From the NCBI GenBank assembly GCA_021804105.1, contig JAJZKP010000006.1, positions 1 to 45,029 on the forward strand: a stretch of 45,029 nucleotides of DNA, in the 5' to 3' direction. The first letter of the stretch is position 1; each line of letters starts with the position of its first letter. Below are positions 9,971-25,019 of the stretch, piece after piece. This DNA comes from Microcaldota archaeon. Its GTDB lineage: Archaea; Micrarchaeota; Micrarchaeia; Micrarchaeales; CABMGC01. Under the pieces are notes generated by a model, which worked only from the letters and a program-made list of their open reading frames with translations, was not told the origin of the DNA and searched no databases. Both the position numbers and the translations under genes were made by a program.

Positions 9971-12900
9971 ATGATGCGACCTCTGGTTCTATATTTCGTA
10001 TCTGCTCTCCTTCTGCTACTCTTTTCCTTGTACACATATGATGCTTACCATATCTCAGGCGCTCATACAAACGCATCGCACAGCTGGAGAACTACTACGA
10101 TACTCGATGAGAGCACGCAGATGTACAGCTATGTGGTGAGCGGTGGAGGGATAGGTTTTACAGGAGGCAATAGCACAGTGTCATCTTCTCTGTCTACGAC
10201 TAGCTCTGCTGTTACAACGGTAAGCGGCACCCCCACTACAACTACCGCGCAAACTAAATCAACAACTCCTACTACCTCATTAACAACTACCTCTACGACT
10301 ACAACAACCGTGCCAAATGTAATCACTTCGACCACTCCGGCAACGACCATGCCGCAGAACTCGCTACAAAATTTCACTACTTCATTCTACGGAGCAGGGC
10401 TTCCCCAGAACGCGCTCTGGAGCGTATACTTAGGAGGGGTGCTCAGGTCTTCGACATCGGTTTTCATAAACTTTACCGGCCAGTCCGCTAACACGGTCTA
10501 CAGCGTATTAATTCCAAATGTTACATACCAGAACTCGACTTTTGCCCCGTCTCCCAACTCAGGGAACGTCGTTTCCGGATTCGAGTACAGGATAGCGTTC
10601 AATGCCCTGGCAAAGGCAACATCCGGCACAAATTCCATCATGACTACCGTAGACCAATCGCCGAGTAATAATTTTACTGGTGCGCAGAGCGAGATACTGA
10701 TCACAAACGCCACAAACATGTTGCGGGAGAGGTTGCGCGGCAGAACCCTGGATGGAATAACAGTGAACCTTACCGCAGCAGGATTATATCTGAGTATTAA
10801 CGTCTTAAACAGGACAACGGTGCCATCAGGCTATGCGCCGGTGCCAAGCCCGGTATATAGCTTCATACGCATAAACGGCACGGCTACCAAGGACGGAGTG
10901 GTGAACAACATAGATAATTACATAAGCAACGTTACATACAATTTTTCTGTGCCTATAGATTGGGTGCAACAGCAGCATATCAGCAGCGGTAACATCAGGC
11001 TCTTTAAGTATGTGCAGGGTAACTGGACTGCACTGCCGACAAGTTACGTAGGATCGAACACAACCTCATATTTCTACTCAGCGCTCTCAAGTTCTTTTTC
11101 CGGATATGTAGTTGGATACACAACCGCAAACACAGTTTCTGTCTCAGATACGATTACACTCGCGGCAACAAGCGGCTATACCACATACTTCTTCGGAGTT
11201 GGATATTCTGCAATGAGCGGAGCGGGGCCGTTGCCTTCGTTAATAAGCTGGACTAATGACACAAACATGACACTGGTACTGAACTCAGGGAAGCCAGGTG
11301 ATCGGTATGCAAACTACTCATCGATAGGCCACCAGACCAGCAGTTCAGGGACCTTTACGCTAGGCTCAGGAGCTTCGGCATACGACGGCGCACTCTCCGC
11401 AGTAGGGGCTAATGTCGTATTCACAGGGAACAATGTAAACGGCGTCCTCTTTTTAAAGAATGGGACCGGAAGTCAGAGCCTCACATACAGCGTAACAGCA
11501 GCCAATAGCTTTGTAGTGCTCGTAATGACTGATGGCGGTTCTGTCTTCACGTCGAATCCGACTCCGCCTAGTAGCGGCTGCACTTGGGTTACTTCCCAAG
11601 CAGAGGAGAGCACATTTGCCGAGGCGGAGGTGGCGGTGTGCTCAGCTTCCACGAGCGGTTCGAAGACAATTAGCTTCACCTCATCTAAGACAGCCGATGC
11701 CGCTGGTGCCATAGCCGCATATGTCTTCCCGCCATATTCAATCACGCTTGATGACAGCCCCACAACAGGCAACATACTCACCGGAGGCGTGACCTATAGC
11801 AACGGCGCAAAAGCAAACCTTATCGGAACGAATACGCTGATTGCAAACGCACCATATGGATATACATTTAATTCCTGGTCCACAAGTTCCACTTCCAATA
11901 TAATCATAGCTAATACACTTTCGGACAATACCGCGGTGACTATAGAAGGAAGCGGAACGGTAACCGCAAACTACATAACATATTTTAATGTATCCCTCTC
12001 ATCATGCCCTACGGCAATACTGCTTGATTCAGGCCAGTCGGTATCGTGCACTGCGATAACATCCAACGGTGTTACGCCTTATACGTATAACTGGCTTGTA
12101 AGCGCACTTAATAATCTTCAATACATAGTTGCCAATCAGCTCTATAGCGGCCTTACCTTATCATCGAACACAGTAACGTTCACCACAAACTCGTTGTTTG
12201 TGGATCACTCTCCTGAGCAATTCAACGTGACCGTGACAGATGGAAGTTCTGTGACGATAAATTCCACTTACTCCGGAAATTTTCAGGTTGCGAGCGCACT
12301 CGCACCTTCCTGCAATCTTCCCGGAACCTCTGATTCAGGCCAATGGTATACGCTCACATGTTCGTGGGCAGGCGGATGGGCAAATTACAACGCAATATGG
12401 TACATTGGCGCTCCTGGCAATAGCTGCGCTCAGGACAGTTCCAATGTACTTGCATCTTACAACGGCATAGCGGTCCTATCCCATTCGCTGTTAGTTTCAC
12501 CGACTACATCAAATAGTTATTGTATAAAAGTCTCCGATTCTGCGACAACGCCTGAAACTGCGAACTCCGTATCCGGCAATATTGTGGTCGATAGTGCGCT
12601 CTCTGTCACGGCGAGCCCGGCAACTAACACAGTAACGCAGGGTGCAAACGCAGTGATATCAGGCAGCGTATCCGGAGGCACCGCAAGTTACTTTTATCAA
12701 TGGCTTGCAGAAGCACCGCTAGGTTCCATGACAGCGTGCACTAACAATTGGCAGGGGGGGACCTGCGCTGGAAATGTACTGACATATACGCAGAATACGG
12801 TCTTGTCTTCTGACATAGATGCGCTGGTTAATATAACAGTTAATAGCGGTGTCACACTCACGACAAACGGATACGCGATATGGATAAGCGGAAATTTAAT

Positions 12901-14095
12901 CAACAATGGCAATGTGATGGCAGGCAATACAATCCCGAATAGAGGTTCGTCATCGCTTAACGTGAACCAACCATTATCATTTGCAGGATCAGGCGCTGGA
13001 GGAGGAGGCGGGGGTATAGGATACAATGGTAATATCGGAAATAGCACATTGGCAGATGGCGGTGGCGGTGGATTTGAAAGTGGAAACGGCGGAAATGGAG
13101 GGACACCGGCTGCACCGAGTATCACCAATGCAAATATAGTAAACTGGGAGGGGAGCAACGATTTCGTGAACTACTTTCTTAGCGGTACAGGAGGAAATGG
13201 AGGCGTTAGTGGACTTTGTCCCGGGGGAAATTGCTATAATAGGGGCGGCAATCCCTCATATGGACTGTATATACAGGCTTCTGATATAGTCAATAGTGGT
13301 AATATAATTGCTACGGGTTTTAGTGGCAGCAACCCGAACAGTAACCCAACAGGCGGTGGTGGGGGCTCAGGAGGCGGATTTGTCCTTCTGTCGTATAACG
13401 GAGTGTGCACCGGATGCGCTGCAAACACAATAGTTACTGGTGGCAGTGGAGGCACAGGTTACTTTGGGGGTGGAAACGGTGGCACAGGTGGCAACGGAAA
13501 TGTTGTAACATATAACTACGGAAACTCACCCCCATTGGTGCCTGGCCTTAGTGCGGCGGAGGGCAATGCTCTTTGTGGAAATACTGCTAACACTATAAAC
13601 TGCAATTTTGCAACTAACAGCCTCACCGCCACAGGCAACTATATCTTCATGCTTCGGGTCACCGATTCGGCGACATTTCCGGTTACAGTGGACTCGGGCC
13701 TTGCGAATGTGATCGTGCAGTCACCATCAAATAACTGCCAGATAAGCCTTTCCCCCGGAGCAATCTCATTCGGTTCCCTGAACCCGACAGCAAGCACAGC
13801 AACGCAGGATACAATAACAGATAAAAACAACGGTAACATAGCGGCAAATATCCTGATATACGGAACGAACTGGATTGGTACTGGCTCGAACGCCTTCGGC
13901 GTTAGCAATACAGTATGGTCAGGCACGCTGAATCTACCTTTTGCGAGTGCAAATGCACTAACTTCGAGCGCAATACTAACTCTGTTGACGGTTGGCAGTA
14001 GTAGCAGTGCAAACATCTTTATAGGTGCAGAAGTGCCTGGCGGCGCGGCAGGGGGAATATACACACAGAATATAATAATAGAGAATAGCTGCTAG
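9971..14095 (+). CDS. Giant secreted surface protein/adhesin (Thr/Ser linker, PGF-pre-PGF-like domain, Gly-rich region, C-terminal ENSC domain)
   Basis: N-terminal hydrophobic segment; Thr-rich tract; 'NYNFSVPIDWV...GNIRLFKYVQGNWTALPTSY...FYSALSSSFSGYVVGY'; GGGGG repeats; C-terminal unit like 6754-7773. Confidence 0.85.
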   Translation: MMRPLVLYFVSALLLLLFSLYTYDAYHISGAHTNASHSWRTTTILDESTQMYSYVVSGGGIGFTGGNSTVSSSLSTTSSAVTTVSGTPTTTTAQTKSTTPTTSLTTTSTTTTTVPNVITSTTPATTMPQNSLQNFTTSFYGAGLPQNALWSVYLGGVLRSSTSVFINFTGQSANTVYSVLIPNVTYQNSTFAPSPNSGNVVSGFEYRIAFNALAKATSGTNSIMTTVDQSPSNNFTGAQSEILITNATNMLRERLRGRTLDGITVNLTAAGLYLSINVLNRTTVPSGYAPVPSPVYSFIRINGTATKDGVVNNIDNYISNVTYNFSVPIDWVQQQHISSGNIRLFKYVQGNWTALPTSYVGSNTTSYFYSALSSSFSGYVVGYTTANTVSVSDTITLAATSGYTTYFFGVGYSAMSGAGPLPSLISWTNDTNMTLVLNSGKPGDRYANYSSIGHQTSSSGTFTLGSGASAYDGALSAVGANVVFTGNNVNGVLFLKNGTGSQSLTYSVTAANSFVVLVMTDGGSVFTSNPTPPSSGCTWVTSQAEESTFAEAEVAVCSASTSGSKTISFTSSKTADAAGAIAAYVFPPYSITLDDSPTTGNILTGGVTYSNGAKANLIGTNTLIANAPYGYTFNSWSTSSTSNIIIANTLSDNTAVTIEGSGTVTANYITYFNVSLSSCPTAILLDSGQSVSCTAITSNGVTPYTYNWLVSALNNLQYIVANQLYSGLTLSSNTVTFTTNSLFVDHSPEQFNVTVTDGSSVTINSTYSGNFQVASALAPSCNLPGTSDSGQWYTLTCSWAGGWANYNAIWYIGAPGNSCAQDSSNVLASYNGIAVLSHSLLVSPTTSNSYCIKVSDSATTPETANSVSGNIVVDSALSVTASPATNTVTQGANAVISGSVSGGTASYFYQWLAEAPLGSMTACTNNWQGGTCAGNVLTYTQNTVLSSDIDALVNITVNSGVTLTTNGYAIWISGNLINNGNVMAGNTIPNRGSSSLNVNQPLSFAGSGAGGGGGGIGYNGNIGNSTLADGGGGGFESGNGGNGGTPAAPSITNANIVNWEGSNDFVNYFLSGTGGNGGVSGLCPGGNCYNRGGNPSYGLYIQASDIVNSGNIIATGFSGSNPNSNPTGGGGGSGGGFVLLSYNGVCTGCAANTIVTGGSGGTGYFGGGNGGTGGNGNVVTYNYGNSPPLVPGLSAAEGNALCGNTANTINCNFATNSLTATGNYIFMLRVTDSATFPVTVDSGLANVIVQSPSNNCQISLSPGAISFGSLNPTASTATQDTITDKNNGNIAANILIYGTNWIGTGSNAFGVSNTVWSGTLNLPFASANALTSSAILTLLTVGSSSSANIFIGAEVPGGAAGGIYTQNIIIENSC

Positions 14096-15503: not shown

Positions 15504-16715
15504 TTGCCGCTTTACCTAGTATTTGTACTGAAGCAGGGGCTTATAGGCGTTGGAGCCGCATATTTCGCCATAATACTTTTTGTGGCCCTTACGTCATTTT
15601 TCTTCGGGATCATGAGTGATAGAATAGGATATGTAAGGACCATGATTATATCAGAGATACTTCCATTCGCAGGCCTTGCCGGGCTAACAATCTCTACTTT
15701 TCTGACAAGCAATGCCACCCTGGCCCTTACCGTGGCGATAATATCTGCCATGCTTGCAGGGATAAGCACGGTTGGAGGGATGAGGGGAGCATTCTCCTCC
15801 GGACAACAGGCGCTTATTGCAAATAATTGGAAGGAACCGAAGGACAGGGCAAACAGGTTCGGAAAGATAATTACGATAGCCTCGATAGCTTCCATAATAG
15901 GGAGCCTTCTCCTTGCATTCCAGGGAATACTAACAGGGGCTCTGCAGGGCCATGCAGTCACCGAATTGCTTGCCAGCACACTCTCCTTCAGGTATATGTT
16001 TGCGATCGGTGCAGTGCTGTTGTTCCTGTCCGTCTTGAGCTTATCCATGGTCAAGGAGATTGCCAAGGCGGAGAAGAAACGCCATATTTTCATAAAGAAA
16101 GAATCATCGCCGCACATGTACAAGGTTATGGCTGCACAGATTTTCGCAGGTATTGGGTTGGGACTCGCCCTGCCAATACTTCCGGCAATAATAGCAAAGG
16201 CATACGCACTTGATTCTGCAACAGCATCACAACTCATAGGATACGTATTCGGAATCGGATACATGCTGATAGCATTGGCATCATCCTATATGTCAAGGCT
16301 TGTATACAGGAGAGAGGTGCCTTCGCTGAAGATCGCGTCCTCAGCAAGGATAATGCAGGGAATCATAATGGCACTGATAGCAGTAGTAATATCCCTTGGT
16401 CCCGGCATACCGTATGGCGCCGGATTCGGCATGGCTATGTTCGGCCTGCTCTATTCAGCTTACGCGCTTTTAATAGGCATAGGAGTTCCGCTAAGGTCTA
16501 TGATAAACATAGGCAGTATACACCAACAGGATTATGGGAGTGCAAGCGCGGCCATGGGAATTGCCATACAGATACCACAGACCAGCGTGAGTCTGTCTGG
16601 GTTTCTATCCGAGGCAATATCATCATTCATTGCCCTGCCGCTGGCTCTGGGTGGCCTTTTCATCTCGATAAGCGGATTTGTGTACTGGAAGCTGCTGAAC
16701 AAGGAAGGCAAATAA
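15504..16715 (+). CDS. Major facilitator superfamily transporter (5' end uncertain)
   Basis: Multiple hydrophobic helices; 'FFFGIMSDRIGYVRT' loop 2-3 motif. Confidence 0.85.
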   Translation: MPLYLVFVLKQGLIGVGAAYFAIILFVALTSFFFGIMSDRIGYVRTMIISEILPFAGLAGLTISTFLTSNATLALTVAIISAMLAGISTVGGMRGAFSSGQQALIANNWKEPKDRANRFGKIITIASIASIIGSLLLAFQGILTGALQGHAVTELLASTLSFRYMFAIGAVLLFLSVLSLSMVKEIAKAEKKRHIFIKKESSPHMYKVMAAQIFAGIGLGLALPILPAIIAKAYALDSATASQLIGYVFGIGYMLIALASSYMSRLVYRREVPSLKIASSARIMQGIIMALIAVVISLGPGIPYGAGFGMAMFGLLYSAYALLIGIGVPLRSMINIGSIHQQDYGSASAAMGIAIQIPQTSVSLSGFLSEAISSFIALPLALGGLFISISGFVYWKLLNKEGK

Positions 16716-16793
16716 CTTGCATGTTGCATCCCAGTGCACATAATTGGTTGAATGTTTTTTATAATGCTTCATTCCAAGTATCCTTGTGATTTT

Positions 16794-17480
16794 ATGATAG
16801 TGCTTGGAGTTGCTGCGCATCCAGACGACCTTGACTTCGGCGCCTCTGGATCGTTCGCAAAGTGGGCAAAGGAAGGCGCATCGTGCTATTATCTCATATG
16901 CACTGACGGCTCGAAAGGCTCTGATGATCCAAAGATGACGGAATCAAAGCTTATCAAGATAAGGAGAGATGAACAGAAGGCAGCCGGAAAGGTCATAGGG
17001 CTTAAAGGCGTGTTCTTTTTGGATCACAAAGACACACAGCTTGTAGCAGATCTTACTTTGAAAAAGGAAATAGTCAGGCACATAAGGAAACTGCGCCCTG
17101 ATGTGGTGGTGACAATGGATCCTACGTTAGTATACTCGAAACGCGGCTTTGTGAACCATACAGACCACAGAGCAGCAGGGCAGGCTACAATAGACGCAGT
17201 ATACCCGATGGCCAGGGACAGGCTGACATTCAAGGAGCTCGAGAAAGAAGGGTTGAAACCGCATAAGGTAAAGACAATGTATCTTACCAACTTCGACAGT
17301 CATACCGATGTAATCGACATAAGCGACTTTATCGAGGTAAAGGTGAAGGCGCTAGCATGCCACAAGAGCCAGATATCTGAGAGGAGCCTTGGATGGGTAA
17401 GGCAGATGGGAAGCATGATAGGCAAGGAGAAAGGGTATAAATACGCAGAGGCATTCGTAAAACTTGGGTTTGATAGGTAA
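16794..17480 (+). CDS. PIG-L/LmbE-family N-acetylglucosaminyl deacetylase-like protein (MshB/BshB superfamily)
   Basis: 'VAAHPDDLDFGASGSFAKWAKEG', 'DGSKGSDD', 'HTDHRAAGQA', 'CHKSQI'. Confidence 0.93.
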   Translation: MIVLGVAAHPDDLDFGASGSFAKWAKEGASCYYLICTDGSKGSDDPKMTESKLIKIRRDEQKAAGKVIGLKGVFFLDHKDTQLVADLTLKKEIVRHIRKLRPDVVVTMDPTLVYSKRGFVNHTDHRAAGQATIDAVYPMARDRLTFKELEKEGLKPHKVKTMYLTNFDSHTDVIDISDFIEVKVKALACHKSQISERSLGWVRQMGSMIGKEKGYKYAEAFVKLGFDR

Positions 17481-17485
17481 ATAAT

Positions 17486-18667
17486 ATGAGTTTAAGGCTT
17501 TTCAGCTCTGCGAGCGGAAAGAAGGAACTGTTCAGGAGCCTTAGGAAAGGGTATGTATCGATCTATGTCTGCGGAGTCACACCTTATGACACTACGCACC
17601 TGGGCCACGCGTTCACATACATGTCATTTGACGTGCTGATAAGATATCTGAGATTCAAAGGATTCAGGGTTACATATGCGCAGAATGTGACAGATATAGA
17701 CGACGATATATTGAGAAGGGCAAGGCAGGAGGGCAGGGAGTGGAGGGAGCTGGGAGGGTATTGGACAGAGCATTATCTGAATGACATGAAGGGCCTGAAT
17801 ATTGCAATGCCAGATTATTATATCAAAGCAACTGATGCCATCCCCATGATTACAAAGATGATTTCCGGGCTCTTGAAAGGCAAGCATGCATATAAGAGTG
17901 GGGGAAATGTCTATTTCGACGTATCGAGTTTTCCCAGATATGGTGAATTGTCCCACTTCAGCCAGAAACAGATGACTATGCTGCTCAAAGAACGCGGCGG
18001 TGACCCTGAAGACCCGAATAAGAGGAACCCGCTTGATTTCATACTCTGGCAGAAATGGAAGAGAGGCGAACCGTCATGGAGCCCGGATTTTGGAAAGGGC
18101 AGGCCAGGGTGGCACATCGAGTGCTCGGCCATGATCAAGCAATACCTTGGAGACCAGATAGATATCCACGGCGGAGGCAGAGATTTGATTTTCCCGCACC
18201 ATGAGAGCGAGATAGCGCAATCGGAGAGCTATACAGGGAAGCATCCTTTTGTAAAATATTTCATGCACACTGGCACTGTAATGTATATGGGAGAGAAGAT
18301 GGCCAAGTCGCTAGGAAATCTAGTTATGGTTTCTGAGTTGCTGAGAAGTCACAGCCCAAGCGCAGTGAGGTGGCTGCTTCTGTCACACCATTACAGGAAA
18401 CCCTGGGAGTATATGGCAGAAGATATTTACAATGCAGATATTTACGCTGAAAAGATAGACAAGTTGATGCGAAGGAGCAGCGTAAATGCGGAAAGAATCA
18501 ATAAAAAGTTGGTATCTGACTTTGAACAGGTTATGGATGACGACTTGAATACTCCGGCAGCGCTAGACATTATCAAGACCTTGCTTACGAATGGGAAGGG
18601 GAAGGATACTGCGCGGTATCTTTTGGGAATATTAGGGTTCGCAAGTGTTAACCAACACGCTATTTAA
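17486..18667 (+). CDS. Cysteinyl-tRNA synthetase paralogue, MshC-like cysteine ligase candidate
   Basis: 'YVCGVTPYDTTHLGHAFTY', 'RGGDPEDPNKRNPLDFILWQKWKRGEPSWSPDFGKGRPGWHIECSAM', 'DIHGGGRDLIFPHHESEIAQSES', 'KMAKSLGNLVMVSELL'; ends at about 393 aa without the C-terminal region of CysRS. Confidence 0.85.
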   Translation: MSLRLFSSASGKKELFRSLRKGYVSIYVCGVTPYDTTHLGHAFTYMSFDVLIRYLRFKGFRVTYAQNVTDIDDDILRRARQEGREWRELGGYWTEHYLNDMKGLNIAMPDYYIKATDAIPMITKMISGLLKGKHAYKSGGNVYFDVSSFPRYGELSHFSQKQMTMLLKERGGDPEDPNKRNPLDFILWQKWKRGEPSWSPDFGKGRPGWHIECSAMIKQYLGDQIDIHGGGRDLIFPHHESEIAQSESYTGKHPFVKYFMHTGTVMYMGEKMAKSLGNLVMVSELLRSHSPSAVRWLLLSHHYRKPWEYMAEDIYNADIYAEKIDKLMRRSSVNAERINKKLVSDFEQVMDDDLNTPAALDIIKTLLTNGKGKDTARYLLGILGFASVNQHAI

Positions 18668-23567: not shown

Positions 23568-25019
23568 ATGCTCCGTCTCTATAACACACTAACCAGGAAG
23601 AAAGAGAAATTCGTGCCAATCAGCGATAGGAAGGTTGGGTTCTACAGCTGCGGCATCACAGCCTATTTTTATCCGCACATAGGTAACATGCGCAGGTACG
23701 TCATGGACGATGTGATAAAGAGGACCATGCTTCATGGCAAATATTATGTCACGCATGTGGAGAATATAACTGACGTCGGGCACCTTATAGGGGACGCAAA
23801 CACTACTGACGACAAGATGAGGATAGAGGCAGAGAAGGAGCATAAAACTATGAAGGCGGTGGCAATGTTCTATTTCGGGATATTCGAGAACGACATGAAA
23901 TTGCTCAACATAATCAGACCGTCCAAGATGCCATTTGCATCTGAACATGTGCCCGAGATGATAAGCCTAATAAAGAGGCTTGATGACAAAGGATTCCTTT
24001 ATAGGCTTGGTTCCGGCATCTACTTTGATACATCGAAGTTCAAGGATTACGGGAGACTCACAGGATCTGATTTTGACACCTTGAATGCGCAGCTTAAAGG
24101 TGGTGCGAGGGTTGAACGTGTTGCAGGCATAAGGAACATCACAGACTTCGCAGTATGGAGGTTTGCTGAAGGGACAGACATGATATGGAATAGCCCATGG
24201 GGCAGGGGTTTTCCAGGATGGCACATAGAGTGCAGTGCGCTCAGCATGATGGAGCTCGGCGAGCATTTTGACGTGCATACTGGTGGTGTGGACCATATAG
24301 CAGTGCACCATTCCAACGAGATAGCGCAGTCGGAATCGGCAACCGGGAAGAAATTCGTCAATTATTGGGTGCATCACGAATTCCTCACAGTAAACGGGCA
24401 GAAGATGTCAAAATCGCTGGGAAACATATATACGGTACAGCATGTGCTAGAAAAAGGCTATTCTCCAATGGCCCTGAGAATGTTCATGCTCTCGGGTCAT
24501 TACAGGCAGATACTTAATTTCACTTTCGAGGCCATGGACAACATAGCCAACACGCTAAACGGCATTTATTCCTTCCTTGAGAGACTTGAAGAAATTAAAG
24601 GAACCGTGAAAAATGACGATTCTGCGGACTTCAGAAAGACCATAAGCTCCCATAAGAGAGGTTTCTTCAAGGCCCTTGATGACGATATAAACACGCCGCT
24701 GGCACTGGCAGAGATGCATGCTGTGATAAACTACACCAATGCAAGGCGCTCTGCAGGAAAGCTTAACAATGCAGAGGCAAGGCACGTGATGAGGGCAATG
24801 CTTGAGTTCGACAAGGTGCTTGGGCTGAAGTTTGAAGCGCACTTGAATTCGGTAAGCAAGCCATTGGAGAAGGAGGTGCTGGACCTGCTGGACGAACGCG
24901 AGAAGGCGAGGAACGGCAGGGATTTCAAGCGTGCAGACGAGATAAGGAAACTGCTCAAGGACAAGTATAACGTGGCGCTTGAGGACACCAACGAAGGCGT
25001 GCGCTGGCACAAGGACTGA
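23568..25019 (+). CDS. cysS: Cysteinyl-tRNA synthetase, full length
   Basis: 'YSCGITAYFYPHIGNMRRYV', 'ENITDVGHLIGDANTTDDKM', 'GWHIECSALSM', 'KMSKSLGNIYTV', C-terminal 'REKARNGRDFKRADEIRKLL...VALEDTNEGVRWHK'. Confidence 0.95.
   Translation: MLRLYNTLTRKKEKFVPISDRKVGFYSCGITAYFYPHIGNMRRYVMDDVIKRTMLHGKYYVTHVENITDVGHLIGDANTTDDKMRIEAEKEHKTMKAVAMFYFGIFENDMKLLNIIRPSKMPFASEHVPEMISLIKRLDDKGFLYRLGSGIYFDTSKFKDYGRLTGSDFDTLNAQLKGGARVERVAGIRNITDFAVWRFAEGTDMIWNSPWGRGFPGWHIECSALSMMELGEHFDVHTGGVDHIAVHHSNEIAQSESATGKKFVNYWVHHEFLTVNGQKMSKSLGNIYTVQHVLEKGYSPMALRMFMLSGHYRQILNFTFEAMDNIANTLNGIYSFLERLEEIKGTVKNDDSADFRKTISSHKRGFFKALDDDINTPLALAEMHAVINYTNARRSAGKLNNAEARHVMRAMLEFDKVLGLKFEAHLNSVSKPLEKEVLDLLDEREKARNGRDFKRADEIRKLLKDKYNVALEDTNEGVRWHKD

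Follow-up and report, generated by a model that had tools for sequence, protein, structure and literature searches.

Can an archaeon make a small thiol by joining cysteine to an amino sugar? Two adjacent genes raise this question. They lie in a 45,029-nucleotide stretch of DNA from a Microcaldota archaeon (contig JAJZKP010000006.1; we call the whole stretch the window). An earlier note, made from the sequence, described them as a PIG-L/LmbE-type deacetylase and a short paralog of cysteinyl-tRNA synthetase (CysRS), and it compared them to MshB and MshC. In the mycothiol route, MshB carries out a deacetylation and MshC then ligates cysteine (PMC9736012, PMC7278568). We think it fairly likely that the pair is a two-step module of this kind that makes a cysteinyl-amino-sugar thiol. 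It would be a variant of the MshB/MshC system, with a ligase that is not itself an MshC.

The gene pair and its deacetylase

The two genes are arranged as the earlier note had claimed: they are on one strand, with 5 bp between the stop codon of the deacetylase and the start of the ligase (Table 1). (The deacetylase frame also has an alternative, longer start, an in-frame ATG at 16752.) All of the motifs that were quoted for the two proteins are present in the window. When each gene is compared to its nearest relative, both are under purifying selection, with dN/dS of 0.12 for the ligase and 0.04 for the deacetylase. The genome that the window comes from is 805 kb and 74.6% complete, and as assembled, it contains two genes of the CysRS family (the ligase and a full-length CysRS) and one PIG-L gene.

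Table 1. Features of the locus discussed in the text (window coordinates).
Feature	Coordinates	Strand	Length	Basis
MFS transporter, upstream of PIG-L	15504..16715	+		PF07690, 42.5 bits
PIG-L/LmbE-type zinc de-N-acetylase (ATG to stop)	16794..17480	+	228 aa	PF02585, motifs, AlphaFold2, PDB match
MshC-like CysRS paralog, predicted ATP-dependent cysteine:amine ligase	17486..18667	+	393 aa	PF01406, tree, residues
Full-length CysRS, presumed tRNA-charging	23568..25019	+	483 aa	cysS, full DALR, tree

The full-length CysRS matches NCBIfam's cysS (441 bits), PF01406, and the whole of the DALR domain, and it falls inside the clade of tRNA-charging CysRS. Presumably, it frees the short copy from a role in translation. 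The MFS transporter is probably only loosely associated with the pair and not a core part of it: besides the window, a related transporter is near the pair in just two other Micrarchaeota loci, and an MFS transporter is also found in a locus (L282) from the bacterial candidate phyla radiation (CPR). Further upstream, at 9971-14095, the window encodes a protein of 1374 amino acids with Ser/Thr-rich and Gly-rich stretches, which is probably a surface protein.

The deacetylase belongs to the PIG-L family (PF02585, 100.5 bits vs. a Pfam cut-off of 28.2). Its catalytic motifs, AHPDD and HxDH, are invariant across homologs (His9, Asp11, Asp12, His122, Asp124, and His125). The AlphaFold2 model has a pLDDT of 91.1, and in a fold search of the PDB, the best match was archaeal diacetylchitobiose deacetylase (TM 0.87), followed by BshB (0.81) and MshB (0.67-0.74). 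Archaeal N,N'-diacetylchitobiose deacetylase (Dac) is also the best match by sequence (116 bits), yet the identity is only about 30%. The score against the BshB1 profile is 89 bits, which is under the cut-off of 182.5. So, the window's enzyme is closer to Dac and BshB1 than to MshB. We know of no partnership between Dac and a CysRS-like ligase.

The ligase compared to CysRS and MshC

The ligase matches the catalytic domain of CysRS (tRNA-synt_1e, PF01406, 366.7 bits) and only the first 16 residues of DALR (Pfam), which bears out the claim that it lacks the C-terminal region of CysRS. Its orthologs have 384-416 amino acids, vs. 448-522 for CysRS. The earlier note had also claimed that the motifs fit MshC better than CysRS, and here the curated models disagree: the ligase scores 409.5 bits against cysS (above the cut-off of 340) and 381.7 bits against MshC (TIGR03447), below the cut-off of 485.1. 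(The MshC of Dietzia scores 669.5 bits with the same model.) Even so, the ligase is far closer to MshC than is the full-length CysRS of the window, which scores 219 bits.

We then compared residues between 18 ligase orthologs from Micrarchaeota and 23 CysRS, along with MshC and the bacterial relatives. The zinc ligands Cys29, Cys213, and His238 and the HxGH and K-[MI]-[SA]-K-S motifs are intact in all 18 orthologs. In contrast, Arg43 and Lys74, which are conserved in 21 and 22 of the 23 CysRS, are replaced by phenylalanine and aspartate in 18/18 orthologs. We infer that these two residues matter for tRNA handling. The orthologs also have an ERGG-type insert (169-172), which is common to MshC and absent from most CysRS. 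This insert and Trp307, which the orthologs also have, are largely shared by MshC and the bacterial relatives and mostly missing from CysRS. The ligase resembles MshC in its TPYDTTHLGHA-type motif, in the ERGG insert, and in the loss of Arg43 and Lys74. It differs from MshC in retaining Glu242, a known zinc ligand of CysRS; MshC has glycine or serine at this position. His228 is also of the CysRS type. (A diverged ligase from genome G241, L051:5759-6895, is 47% identical; it has threonine instead of Glu242 and glutamine instead of His228, and the glutamine is as in MshC. No PIG-L was detected in that genome.)

The predicted structure of the ligase (AlphaFold2, pLDDT 93.9) is about equally similar to MshC (TM 0.89/0.85) and to CysRS (TM 0.90/0.77), so the fold does not tell the two apart.

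We built a careful tree from 57 proteins, and a larger quick tree agrees with it. A branch with 100/100 support separates the tRNA-charging CysRS, including the window's own, from the ligase. Around the ligase are short CysRS-like proteins found in CPR Microgenomates, Chloroflexota, and Actinomycetota, and MshC belongs to this family as well. The Micrarchaeota ligases form a clade (100/97) that is nested within sequences from CPR Microgenomates (98/89, then 99/94). The MshC proteins (those above the NCBIfam cut-off) have a clade of their own, which is nested within proteins from Chloroflexota and Actinomycetota. A tree that unites the Micrarchaeota ligases with MshC is rejected (AU test, p 0.002), so the ligase is not an ortholog of MshC. 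Placing the Micrarchaeota ligases beside CysRS is weakly disfavored (p 0.08).

The window's full-length CysRS groups with CysRS from CPR Microgenomates (99/96) and not with the CysRS that we included from families of other classes in the same phylum. Both of the archaeon's CysRS-family genes therefore look shared with CPR. We also considered viral contigs as a source of relatives of the ligase, and they had just CysRS-like proteins of 35-42% identity.

Conservation and recurrence of the pairing

Among 303 genomes of the phylum, we found clear orthologs of the ligase in 19, including the window's own (58-90% identity), and an outlier in G241. In the 9-20 kb that we inspected around each ligase, 18 of the 19 ortholog genomes (all except G176, locus L049) have PIG-L as the gene immediately upstream, in the same orientation. 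If near-identical species are merged, the PIG-L neighbor is kept in 14/15 groups and the next-best neighbor in 4/15; the pairing is conserved in relatives while the other neighbors vary. Few genomes of the phylum have a PIG-L gene (30/303). It is present in 18/20 genomes with the ligase vs. 12/283 of the others (Fisher p 3.5e-19, ignoring kinship and with draft assemblies). The two genomes with a ligase and without any PIG-L are G176, which is 94% complete, and the outlier G241. In four genomes, a more diverged PIG-L of the window's type (52-61% identical to the one in the window) has no ligase as a neighbor.

To find relatives in bacteria, we scanned a genome collection with a DNA pattern for TPYDTTHLGHA, which gives a lower bound on the taxonomic spread. 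Among the matches listed, most were from Chloroflexota, CPR Microgenomates (Levybacteria, Daviesbacteria, and Curtissbacteria), and Actinomycetota, and two were from Micrarchaeota. A separate and clearly longer CysRS is present in 32 of the 34 bacterial genomes with the ligase family, so the short proteins are generally not the CysRS for translation. (Of the two exceptions, G309 has a single match and G321 has a second copy at the end of a contig.)

The earlier note had seen the module as archaeal, and it is not purely so: both the ligase clade and the pairing extend to CPR Microgenomates, which have the nearest relatives of the ligase in the tree. We drew 384 genomes from the class of one of these relatives (G324) and found the ligase in 55. 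Of these 55 genomes, 52 also have a PIG-L, vs. 144/329 of the other genomes (p 7.6e-14, ignoring kinship). Adding two ligase loci that we had found earlier gives 57, of which 26 have a PIG-L at position -1. It is divergent in 13 of them and on the ligase's strand in the other 13; at all other positions in the stretches inspected around the 57 loci, PIG-L was absent. Only 7 of the 26 paired deacetylases are of the window's type; one of this type, in L294/L181, is 70% identical to the window's PIG-L. The other 19 are of a different, BshB2-like type that is about 30% identical. Since two unlike types of PIG-L are found beside one family of ligases, the pairing probably has more than one origin. 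We consider this recurrence to be the strongest evidence that the two genes are functionally linked. Chloroflexota have the same ligase family, but we found no adjacent PIG-L in the Chloroflexota loci inspected. (In Ktedonobacteria, a TatD gene is upstream of the ligase-family gene instead.)

No other conserved pathway gene was found around the pair in Micrarchaeota or CPR, nor around the unlinked PIG-L genes of CPR, and the pair is not linked to a dedicated glycosyltransferase, to a phosphatase, or to an MshD-like acetyltransferase. The recurring neighbors of the pair, or of unlinked PIG-L in CPR, reflect housekeeping synteny (IF3-L20-PheST, GltX, and a glycosidase-like protein). In Daviesbacteria-like genomes with the ligase (L434-L439 and L445), the unlinked PIG-L of the window's type is inside a translation cluster, flanked by the genes for ribosomal protein L20 and PheST.

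While collecting relatives, we noticed several other unusual members of the CysRS family. In two genomes of the Ktedonobacteria type (L310:3-2570 and L315:192-2591, from G326 and G310), CysRS paralogs of 800-856 amino acids combine a complete CysRS catalytic domain with a family-2 glycosyltransferase in one protein, and similar lengths are found in G323 and G327. The fusion proteins fall inside the tRNA-CysRS clade, beside the other CysRS of G326; such a fusion hints again at cysteine on sugars. Another clade of CysRS-like proteins, of 365-375 amino acids and distinct from MshC, is found in Actinomycetota (Pseudonocardia, Microbispora, and Acidimicrobiia; L133, L148, L187, and others), and the two members that we scored were under the cut-offs for both cysS and MshC. 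Finally, a Candidatus Microthrix genome has two neighboring CysRS-family genes (G334:C66:123858-126108, L319), one from the MshC-like family and one an open frame of 502 amino acids.

What the pair might make

We asked if the product could be a known thiol. In a search of 26 Micrarchaeota genomes (drafts), we did not find inositol-1-phosphate synthase, although the same search was positive in 6 of 14 controls, and no protein scored above the cut-off for MshA. BshC was not found in any of the 20 ligase-bearing genomes. (The MshA profile does find generic GT4 glycosyltransferases in all of the genomes tested, with and without the ligase, so GT4 is not diagnostic.) The completeness of the drafts limits the individual absences and not the joint pattern of absence. 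Without inositol-1-phosphate synthase, MshA, or BshC, we would not expect the product to be mycothiol or bacillithiol made by the known routes. Because inositol-1-phosphate synthase was not found, GlcN-Ins is an unlikely acceptor for the ligase, and an aglycone of inositol made by the cell itself is unlikely.

Might the pair still be the pathway for mycothiol or bacillithiol, acquired from bacteria? The enzyme logic is the same. In the mycothiol pathway of Actinomycetota, as predicted here, a PIG-L protein acts first and a CysRS paralog without the anticodon-binding end then adds cysteine, and bacillithiol synthesis also uses a PIG-L deacetylase (BshB) before cysteine is added; generic GT4 proteins are available as well. 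But BshC is from another protein family than the CysRS-like ligase, and the missing genes and the rejected grouping with MshC also argue against this explanation. Furthermore, a review of thiols reports that archaea lack mycothiol and its genes, save for one hit to MshD (PMC7278568). We consider this explanation very improbable. The tree, the residues, and the conserved pairing still make MshB and MshC the closest known logic for the pair.

Two other explanations are unlikely, and about equally so. One is that the pairing with PIG-L is incidental and the ligase charges a tRNA or modifies a tRNA base, as GluQ-RS does. There is a precedent in the CysRS* of Desulfobacterales, a truncated enzyme without the anticodon-binding domain, whose substrate is a SelC-like tRNA (PMC9437257). 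The higher score for cysS than for MshC, the retention of Glu242 and His228, and the tree test that did not firmly reject a place beside CysRS would all fit. On the other hand, the ligase is outside the well-supported clade of tRNA-charging CysRS and has lost Arg43 and Lys74, and none of the 18 loci that we scanned has a tRNA gene adjoining the ligase. (These loci contain a single tRNA gene, for tRNA-Pro in L046, at a distance of 1.7 kb from the ligase.) Nor would a role in tRNA metabolism explain the recurrent linkage to two unlike types of PIG-L. The other explanation is that cysteine is added to the glucosamine of a surface glycan, a glycolipid, or an exported compound, and not to a soluble redox thiol. 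PIG-L enzymes, as seen among the neighbors in the PDB, have glycolipids and antibiotics among their substrates, besides thiol precursors; PIG-L adjoins a GH18 glycosidase in two CPR genomes; and an MFS transporter is sometimes near the pair. But the transporter is in few loci and its position varies, and no gene for glycans, lipids, or export is conserved beside the pair.

We prefer the explanation that the pair is a thiol-forming module. By analogy to MshB and MshC, PIG-L would remove acetate from an N-acetylglucosamine-type conjugate and leave a free sugar amine. In its zinc-dependent pocket, the ligase would form Cys-AMP from L-cysteine and ATP. Lacking the parts that handle tRNA, it would then pass the cysteine to the sugar amine, which would yield a Cys-amino-sugar thiol (an amide of cysteine). 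Family membership and the intact motifs point to both steps; the sugar acceptor and a use as a low-molecular-weight thiol are what we would expect from the comparison to known pathways.

More tentatively, and with somewhat less confidence than we would need to favor it, we suggest that Micrarchaeota and CPR Microgenomates have come, via gene transfer, to share a low-molecular-weight thiol that has not been described before. It would have cysteine on a glucosamine-type sugar whose aglycone is neither inositol nor malate, and the module of PIG-L and CysRS-like ligase would have been assembled at least twice from unlike types of PIG-L. In the literature that we searched, we found no description of the ligase clade or of its pairing with PIG-L (this is weak negative evidence, as few subscription papers were covered), and we found no thiol described for Micrarchaeota or CPR.

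If this is correct, then organisms for which no thiol is known have a new small one. The family of cysteine ligases derived from CysRS is far wider than MshC, and its members risk being named cysteine--tRNA ligase: the window's ligase and five of the bacterial and archaeal relatives that we scored exceed the curated cutoff for cysS. As the pair is conserved in both Micrarchaeota and CPR, which have very small genomes, it offers a direct genetic handle on the question of their thiols.
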